Below are positions 45,280 to 48,206 of a stretch of 64,000 bases of DNA, piece after piece. The position numbers and the translations under genes are program-made. A model generated the notes under the pieces. The model did not search any database. It saw nothing but the letters and a program-made list of their open reading frames with translations, and was not told the DNA's origin. Every line of letters begins with the position of its first letter. Within the stretch, counting starts at the first letter, position 1. Source of the DNA: a bacterium (GTDB lineage Bacteria; Myxococcota_A; UBA9160; SZUA-336); contig JAAELY010000240.1 of NCBI GenBank assembly GCA_024226335.1, forward strand, positions 1 to 64,000, read 5' to 3'.

Positions 45280-45291
45280 AATCGATCGATT
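45280..45291. promoter_or_regulatory. 12-bp palindrome upstream of the HIT gene
   Basis: AATCGATCGATT is a perfect palindrome 24 bases before the HIT start codon. It may be a regulator site or chance; no second copy is adjacent. Confidence 0.25.
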
Positions 45292-45319
45292 CTAGCGGAG
45301 ATCGTGGTAGACTCCGCCG

Positions 45320-45527
45320 AGGTGAGCGGACCGTGGGACGCTCGGAGTTCTTCCTACAATGATTGCTACGGGGACCGCCACTGACGACGAGAGAGCAAGC
45401 CACGATGCGCGATCCCGGGGTTTTCGAATCCCGAGACGAGTAACGAGGAAGCCCAGAGTCGCTATGTGGTCACCCACCTACTTTGTGTAGGGTTAGAACT
45501 CCGAGAAGCCCACAGTCCCGCTCACCG
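45320..45527 (+). ncRNA. 6S-RNA-like structured RNA (strand uncertain)
   Basis: This gene-free stretch folds into a long interrupted rod. GGTGAGCGG (45321-45329) pairs with CCGCTCACC (45518-45526), GTGGG (45333-45337) with CCCAC (45509-45513), CTCGGAGTTCT (45341-45351) with AGAACTCCGAG (45495-45505), CCTACA with TGTAGG, then GGGGACC with GGTC-a-CCC after a bubble. The tip is CGGGGTT(TTCG)AATCCCG (45416-45433). CCTAC (45477-45481) can pair instead with GTAGG (45487-45491), a competing hairpin next to the bubble, as in 6S RNA. TAGACT (45308-45313) fits as -10 with a start at about 45320. The minus strand also has a TAGAAT, so strand is not certain. Length about 208 matches 6S RNA. Confidence 0.5.
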
Positions 45528-45541
45528 GTCTACCGCCCATT

Positions 45542-46549
45542 CTAGCGGTACCCCTCCACGACGGGACGACGCGGAAGCTTCCAGAACAGCGCGTCGCAGG
45601 CTGTGCGTACCTCATCGGGAAGTTCGAGATCCGGTGCGGCGAGCGACGCATCGAGTTGCTCGACGCGGCTCGCACCGATGATTGCCGAGCTGATCCCCGG
45701 TTGAGCGAGCACCCAGGCGACGGCCGTCGTCACCAGATCGAGCCCGTGTTGCTCGACGGTCTTGGCGAGTTCGTGCACCAGATCGAACTGCGCATCCTGC
45801 CAGTAGCGCCACTGGTACATCCTGGCGGCCGTACCGAGCGTGAAACGCGTACCGTCCTCGGGCGCATCGCCCTTGCGGTATTTGCCGCTCAGGAAGCCAC
45901 CGGCAAGAGGATTGTAGGCCAGCAAGCCGAGCCCCTGATCGCGACACATGGGCATGAGTTCAGTCTCGATCTCGCGGTAGAGAAGGTTGTAGCGCGATTG
46001 CATCGAGTCGTAGCGCGCCAATCCCAGGCGTTCACTCGTGGCGAGCGCGTCTGACAGGCGCCACGCGGGGTAGTTGGAGCATCCGAGATAACGAACCTTG
46101 CCCTGGCTCACGAGATCGTCGAGCGCGCGCAGTGTTTCTTCGATCGGCGTATCGGGATCAAAGAAGTGAGTCTGGTACAGATCGATCACATCGGTCTGAA
46201 GCCGCTTCAGACTCCCTTCGACCGCCGCCAAGATGTGCTGCCGGGACAGTCCCTGATCATTGGGACCGGGCCCCATGGAGCCACGGCACTTGGTCGCGAG
46301 CAGCACGCGCTGACGATTGCCGCGTTCACGCATCCAGCGGCCGATGATCTCTTCGGTTCGGCCAACAGTTTCGAGGGTGCCACCGAGCGGATAGACGTCC
46401 GCGGTATCGAGAAAGTCGACTCCCGCCTCGAAGGCGCGGTCGAGCATCTCAAAGGATGCTGCCTCCTCGGTCTGCAGACCGAACGTCATGGTTCCCAGAC
46501 AGAGCACGGGAACGCGAAGTCCCGTGCGTCCCAGTCGCCGTTGTTCCAC
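45542..46549 (-). CDS. aldo/keto reductase (Kvbeta/YajO-like)
   Basis: The 335-residue NADP-linked AKR begins MEQRRLGRTGLRVPVLCLG, the standard family start. The catalytic residues are Asp and Tyr in DFLDTADVYPLGG, Lys in LLATKCRG and His in DLYQTHFFD, and the C-terminal AIIGASRVEQL binds the cofactor's phosphate. The stop overlaps a short repeat ATTCTAGCGG that flanks the RNA region. Substrate unknown. ATG at 46549 is the natural start. Confidence 0.9.
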   Translation of the reverse strand: MEQRRLGRTGLRVPVLCLGTMTFGLQTEEAASFEMLDRAFEAGVDFLDTADVYPLGGTLETVGRTEEIIGRWMRERGNRQRVLLATKCRGSMGPGPNDQGLSRQHILAAVEGSLKRLQTDVIDLYQTHFFDPDTPIEETLRALDDLVSQGKVRYLGCSNYPAWRLSDALATSERLGLARYDSMQSRYNLLYREIETELMPMCRDQGLGLLAYNPLAGGFLSGKYRKGDAPEDGTRFTLGTAARMYQWRYWQDAQFDLVHELAKTVEQHGLDLVTTAVAWVLAQPGISSAIIGASRVEQLDASLAAPDLELPDEVRTACDALFWKLPRRPVVEGYR

Positions 46550-47366: not shown

Positions 47367-47453
47367 CGACTACATTTATCACGAATCGTCCGGGATGCGG
47401 GAAATTCCGTCAGCGTGGTAGTCTTCGCACCGGCAGAACTGGGGGAGAACTGC

Positions 47454-48206
47454 TTGGAAAAGCGCAGCATCATCGCAACAATCGCGGCTCTCATCGGCGG
47501 CACTTCGCTTCTTGCAGCAGCGGCGGGTCCGATTTGCGCCCAACTCAGCCTGCTTTCGCCCTACTCCGCCTTCTGGCTCTTCGCCGTGGGTGTCGCGCCG
47601 GGCGGCCTGCTCGCTCTGCTGCTGGGCATCACTGCACTCTTGCACACACGGGCCGCGTCCGGACGAACGGGTCGCGGCCTCGCGTGGACGAGCACGCTGC
47701 TCGGTGTCTTGTTGCTCGGCGTGCTGCTCGGCTCGATCGGCGGCAGTGCCGGAGCTCCGACGATCCACGACGTGACGACCGACATCGAGACACCCCCGGA
47801 GTTCGGTGCTGGGGCCCGAGGCGGGGAAGGCCGAGTCAACGGCTTGCGGTACCCGGACGGCGGCTCCGACGTACCTGAGCTTCAGCGCGCAGCGTATCCC
47901 GATCTGAAGCCGATCGAGGTGCCCTGGGAAGGCATCATCGCATTCGAACGCGCCCGGGAAGTGGCCGAAGATCTCGGCTGGGAGATCACGCACGCGCGCA
48001 AGAGCGCGGGGCGGATGGAGGCAAAGGATGTCTCGAAGGTCTTCAAGTTCGTCGACGACATGGCGATCCGGATCACCTACATCGACTACAGGTCATCGCT
48101 GGTCGATATTCGCTCGAACTCACGTGTCGGCCTGGGCGATATGGGTGCAAACGCGGCACGTATCCGTCGGTTCCGCGACGGGTTGATCGAGAGGGCGAAT
48201 CAGTAG
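47454..48206 (+). CDS. membrane protein with DUF1499 domain
   Basis: The 250-residue protein has three hydrophobic helices (residues about 6-100, including FWLFAVGVAPGGLLALLLG and TSTLLGVLLLGVLLGS) followed by a DUF1499 domain recognised by its end YRSSLVDIRSNSRVGLGDMGANAARIR. DUF1499 occurs in bacterial and plant proteins of unknown function. TTG at 47454 is preceded by GGGGGAG at six bases and the residue after it begins a lysine-arginine cap, so I prefer it to the GTG at 47415. Confidence 0.75.
   Translation: MEKRSIIATIAALIGGTSLLAAAAGPICAQLSLLSPYSAFWLFAVGVAPGGLLALLLGITALLHTRAASGRTGRGLAWTSTLLGVLLLGVLLGSIGGSAGAPTIHDVTTDIETPPEFGAGARGGEGRVNGLRYPDGGSDVPELQRAAYPDLKPIEVPWEGIIAFERAREVAEDLGWEITHARKSAGRMEAKDVSKVFKFVDDMAIRITYIDYRSSLVDIRSNSRVGLGDMGANAARIRRFRDGLIERANQ

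Follow-up and report, generated by a model that had tools for sequence, protein, structure and literature searches.

The window, that is, the whole stretch of 64,000 nucleotides analysed here, contains an intergenic gap between two genes of the minus strand, which encode a HIT-domain protein and an aldo/keto reductase. The gap is occupied by what is very probably a 6S RNA gene on the plus strand. 6S RNA is a common bacterial RNA, which mimics an open promoter and keeps RNA polymerase in check. The features of the locus are:

45256-44828, minus strand: HIT-domain protein gene, upstream.
45305-45313, plus strand: predicted extended -10 promoter TGG-TAGACT (TGNTANNNT), lying 2-7 nt upstream of the mapped start of the RNA in five of five same-family loci.
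45321-45527, plus strand: 6S RNA gene (RF00013 match 1-187; lineage models cover 45318-45532), with predicted 5' and 3' ends.
45321-45337, plus strand: closing stem, 5' strand (9 bp + 5 bp), from sequence, fold and compensatory changes in helices 1-3.
45341-45358, plus strand: helix P2, 5' strand, with CCTACA at 45353-45358 (covariation of helices 4 and 5); putative pRNA template, with the start predicted opposite C45357 from the RF00013 alignment.
45359-45369, plus strand: central bubble, 5' side, from the fold; unpaired in the consensus structure.
45370-45475, plus strand: terminal arm, with conserved GAGAGCAAGCC at 45391-45401 and GGAAGCC at 45447-45453; covariation of helices 6-9.
45402-45446, plus strand: apical extension, with a UUCG-capped 7-bp hairpin at 45416-45433.
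45476-45492, plus strand: central bubble, 3' side, and competing release hairpin, CCTAC 45477-45481 with GTAGG 45487-45491, conserved over nine relatives.
45486-45505, plus strand: helix P2, 3' strand, with TGTAGG at 45486-45491, from fold and covariation.
45509-45526, plus strand: closing stem, 3' strand, from sequence, fold and covariation.
46549-45542, minus strand: aldo/keto reductase gene, downstream.

The preliminary description had reported five paired blocks of 9, 5, 11, 6 and 7 bp, and each is found at its claimed place when the sequence is read: GGTGAGCGG 45321-45329 with CCGCTCACC 45518-45526, GTGGG 45333-45337 with CCCAC 45509-45513, CTCGGAGTTCT 45341-45351 with AGAACTCCGAG 45495-45505, CCTACA 45353-45358 with TGTAGG 45486-45491, and CGGGGTT 45416-45422 with AATCCCG 45427-45433, the last including one G-U pair and surrounding TTCG. 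The rod, described as about 208 bases long, spans 45320-45527 and measures 208 bases. The minimum-energy fold unites the five blocks into one rod plus a terminal arm, with a free energy of −108.6 kcal/mol for the plus strand, compared to −76.4 ± 4.8 kcal/mol for 200 dinucleotide shuffles (z = −6.73), none of which was as good. The minus strand also has a folding z of −5.34; therefore, folding energy alone does not decide the strand. The UUCG sequence described at the tip is indeed present in the 7-bp hairpin, but its closing pair is U-A and not the C-G of the extra-stable C(UUCG)G tetraloop. The apical extension in which it lies is an insertion with respect to both RF00013 and the lineage model R2 (see below), and takes the length of this 6S RNA from about 180 to about 207 nt.

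In the RF00013 search that the preliminary description had proposed, run here without a threshold, the model matched 45321-45527 of the plus strand over its entire length (model positions 1-187 of 187), with 31.1 bits and an E-value of 1.2e-4. This score is below the gathering cut-off of 46.4 bits, which is a curation threshold and not a biological feature. At gathering scores, Rfam gives no match anywhere in the window, which probably explains why annotation would pass the element over. The 6S match is the only one found by RF00013 in the 5.75-Mb genome. The other Rfam family listed for the element, the Giardia snoRNA GlsR1, has an E-value of 0.13 and is attributed to chance. As a control, the E. 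coli ssrS sequence scored 139.8 bits with RF00013, with its bubble aligned alike. A DNA similarity search against 40 relatives returned only short matches, too weak by themselves.

Four genomes of the same family (G002, G003, G008 and G010) each contain one RF00013 match, scoring 40.1, 32.2, 51.8 and 41.4 bits, respectively; that of G008 exceeds the cut-off. An exact-pattern scan of named genomes gave these four true relatives as the metagenome-assembled genomes (MAGs) CSMAG_3071, SZUA-336, 277c_39 and OFTM108. Two other genomes matched the scan by chance (L049 and L051), with no 6S hit in either. We take the SZUA-336 lineage to be part of class UBA9160, in the GTDB phylum Myxococcota or Myxococcota_A; a search of the accessible literature for 6S RNA in this lineage found nothing. 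The central-bubble sequence CCTACAA is common to the window and all four relatives. Model R2, a covariance model made from these four sequences (including the above-cut-off one of G008) and leaving out that of the window, matches the window with 89 bits (E-value 7.5e-15), on the plus strand only and over all of its 192 positions, the runner-up in the 64 kb scoring 12.6 bits. Both full-length matches run co-linearly through closing stem, bubble and terminal arm. R2 also recovers 6S RNAs that exceed the cut-off in other parts of the phylum (L008 and L006, with R2 scores of 72.6 and 45.6 bits), making the chain from the window element to accepted 6S RNAs an unbroken one.

The covariation analysis that had been suggested gave strong support to the structure. 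Among nine relatives aligned to R2, both-sided, compensatory changes occur in 32 of 52 base pairs, against 17.4 in shuffles, a large margin, although fitting the alignment to the structure favours it somewhat. In the same set, standard pairs fill 92.0% of cells (74.3% in shuffles and 37-46% when partners are slid), and the covariation score is 0.470, compared to 0.166 for shuffled and 0.06-0.10 for slid pairings. Within the family itself (five members), the both-sided changes number 16, versus 7.5 in shuffles. The structure has thus been kept by compensatory change, as expected of a 6S RNA.

The preliminary description had left the strand open, with promoter-like TAGACT on the plus strand and TAGAAT on the minus strand. 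The RNA is on the plus strand, as judged from RF00013, R2 and the conserved promoter: RF00013 gives no minus-strand match, R2 scores the plus strand alone and a minus-strand gene is rejected. For the relatives, sense copies reach 145-180 bits and antisense copies about 20-30 bits. TAGACT is part of an extended -10 sequence conserved as TGGTAGACT in the window, TGCTAGGAT in G002 and G003, TGCTAGTCT in G008 and TGATACAAT in G010. Because it precedes the RNA in all five family members, the strand is plus and GGTAGAC belongs to the promoter and not to the RNA, the start of which is predicted to within a few bases. No good -35 sequence is found upstream of the window gene, the best being TCGATT at 45286-45291; four outgroups of the class have a TTGACA -35 and a -10 sequence spaced by 16-17 nt. 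Judged by consensus, the gene would thus be a stand-alone one with its own promoter. GGTAGAC and GTCTACC, proposed to lengthen the base of the rod, do form an inverted repeat in the DNA; the 5' arm, however, coincides with the -10 region and should be missing from the mature RNA. The extension is absent from the relatives examined, in which the downstream GTCTACC has no counterpart. No intrinsic terminator or terminator-like T-run was found at the element.

The small hairpin noted beside the bubble, competing with the main pairing, is conserved. The single GUAGG at 45487-45491 is contested by two CCUAC strands, one at 45353-45357 and the other at 45477-45481, so that the 3' side of the bubble competes with P2 as in E. 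coli. A local hairpin is formed by each of the nine sequences inspected, that of G010 in a shifted register (ACCUG/CAGGU). In its five-pair version, 95.6% of cells are paired over the nine aligned relatives; pair changes lend it modest support, with both sides altered at two pairs. In E. coli 6S RNA, pRNA synthesis opens P2, and the 3' side of the bubble and the freed P2 3' strand form a hairpin, upon which RNA polymerase is released (PMC8876501). In the RF00013 alignment, C45357 stands in the place of E. coli U44; the expected pRNA, copied from C45357 backwards, is therefore 5'-GUAGGAAGAACUCCG....

Transposing the mechanism of E. coli and other 6S RNAs to this RNA, the central bubble would imitate an open promoter, to which RNA polymerase with the primary sigma factor would bind and be held. 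Given an ample nucleotide supply, the enzyme would transcribe a short pRNA from the 5' strand of the bubble, and this pRNA would push off the P2 3' strand. The freed GUAGG could then pair back with the second CCUAC (45477-45481), forming the release hairpin and letting the polymerase go.

Three other explanations were weighed. An RNA binding core RNA polymerase without sigma, like actinobacterial Ms1, appears very unlikely. Ms1 has a structural relationship with 6S RNA, and RNAs of this sort diverge strongly in sequence (PMC9130861, PMC11077062); a score under the 6S cut-off would fit. However, the match to RF00013 runs from end to end, same-family G008 is above the cut-off, and the 6S motifs CCCACCU, GAGAGCAAGCC and GGAAGCC are kept; no non-6S Rfam family reaches its cut-off or a meaningful E-value, a result that bears on Ms1 only if Rfam 15 includes a model for it. 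Less likely still is that the HIT or aldo/keto reductase gene has its cis-acting leader or 3' element here: the element fills the whole intergenic gap, yet both neighbours are on the opposite strand to the RNA, and other genes flank it directly in the family members that were compared.

Equally improbable is an inverted-repeat DNA feature without an RNA gene, such as a mobile element remnant or a bidirectional terminator. It could account for the flanking 7-bp inverted repeat and for a 10-bp direct repeat, ATTCTAGCGG, whose sole two copies in the window, at 45289-45298 and 45539-45548, bracket the 6S gene (0.02 copies expected in the window; four in the genome). Together these repeats resemble a framed cassette, yet their spacing is unequal and they are absent from the relatives; they are probably due to chance. 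The compensatory changes and the strand-specific model scores also speak against a DNA feature, as do the lack of a T-run and of a second copy in the genome, in RF00013 and DNA searches. The preliminary description had named a sub-threshold score combined with evidence of another element as grounds for abandoning the 6S reading; the score is indeed sub-threshold, while no other element is indicated.

We therefore consider 45321-45527 to be, very probably, a 6S RNA gene of the ssrS type, as originally interpreted, with its own extended -10 promoter and a product that would hold polymerase and release it via pRNA synthesis. Homology, strand, structure, covariation and the conservation of promoter and hairpin are observed; polymerase binding, copying and release are expected by analogy with E. 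coli 6S RNA. That it is an ordinary, if diverged, 6S RNA is well supported; it falls short of the curated Rfam score alone and of no testable structural feature. Counting against the 6S reading are that sub-threshold score, the lack of an intrinsic terminator, gene neighbours that are unlike those of ssrS in E. coli and vary within the family, and four family genomes, at least 91% complete, with no credible match to any model. The finding adds an uncultured and little-known lineage, in which the standard model misses its cut-off, to those with this global RNA polymerase regulator, and the E. coli-type release hairpin is conserved beyond the gammaproteobacteria.

No credible 6S RNA was found with RF00013, R1 or R3 in four other genomes of the family (G005, G006, G007 and G009, 91-97% complete), nor in most genomes of the class with the searches used, pointing to loss of the gene or divergence past these models. 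More speculatively, the family may carry a 6S lineage that has diverged so that one GUAGG is contested by identical CCUAC strands from the 5' and 3' sides of the bubble. Such an arrangement would amount to a minimal switch by strand exchange, its pRNA starting with G, and in sister genera the gene would have been lost or have changed past detection. Model R3 gave new full-length 6S candidates of 169-240 nt in genomes of other families of the class (L067, L068, L069, L070 and L071; 34-40 bits), for which RF00013 searches listed no significant match. A lineage-specific model is thus now available and finds more candidates that RF00013 misses.

The genes adjoining 6S vary between family members, and synteny with E. 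coli ssrS (zapA / fau) was not found at the window locus. A DUF1499 protein gene lies about 1.9 kb downstream of the 6S gene (47415-48206); its homologue directly adjoins 6S in G010 (L038:4328-5086). In three outgroups of the class (L040, L041 and L045), the 6S gene appears, on reading, to adjoin a conserved glycosyltransferase gene (MRIALLTYRGNM...), accompanied in two of them by an anmK-like gene. This stable neighbourhood could help locate further 6S genes.

Compared with the 6S RNAs of the same-family MAGs (SZUA-336, OFTM108, CSMAG_3071 and 277c_39), that of the window shares the CCUACAA bubble, the competing hairpin and the extended -10 sequence, but has different gene neighbours and a longer apical loop, the difference being smallest for G003. 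B. subtilis 6S-1 RNA also has a 5-bp hairpin in the 3' side of the bubble, one that the RNA could adopt even when free (PMC8876501); its collapse helix, however, joins the 5' side of the bubble with P2, whereas the window hairpin uses the P2 3' strand, like that of E. coli. From E. coli-type 6S RNA (RF00013), the window RNA differs in its score, its apical extension, the promoter without a -35 sequence and the lack of a fau neighbour. Where E. coli has the U44-centred CCGAUAUUU, the 5' bubble of the window RNA begins with CCUACAA, and the predicted pRNA accordingly starts with G. It resembles the E. coli type in being a single-copy, full-length rod with a closing stem and a central bubble, in carrying CCCACCU on the 3' bubble side and the terminal-arm motifs GAGAGCAAGCC and GGAAGCC, and in forming its release hairpin from the 3' side of the bubble and the P2 3' strand.
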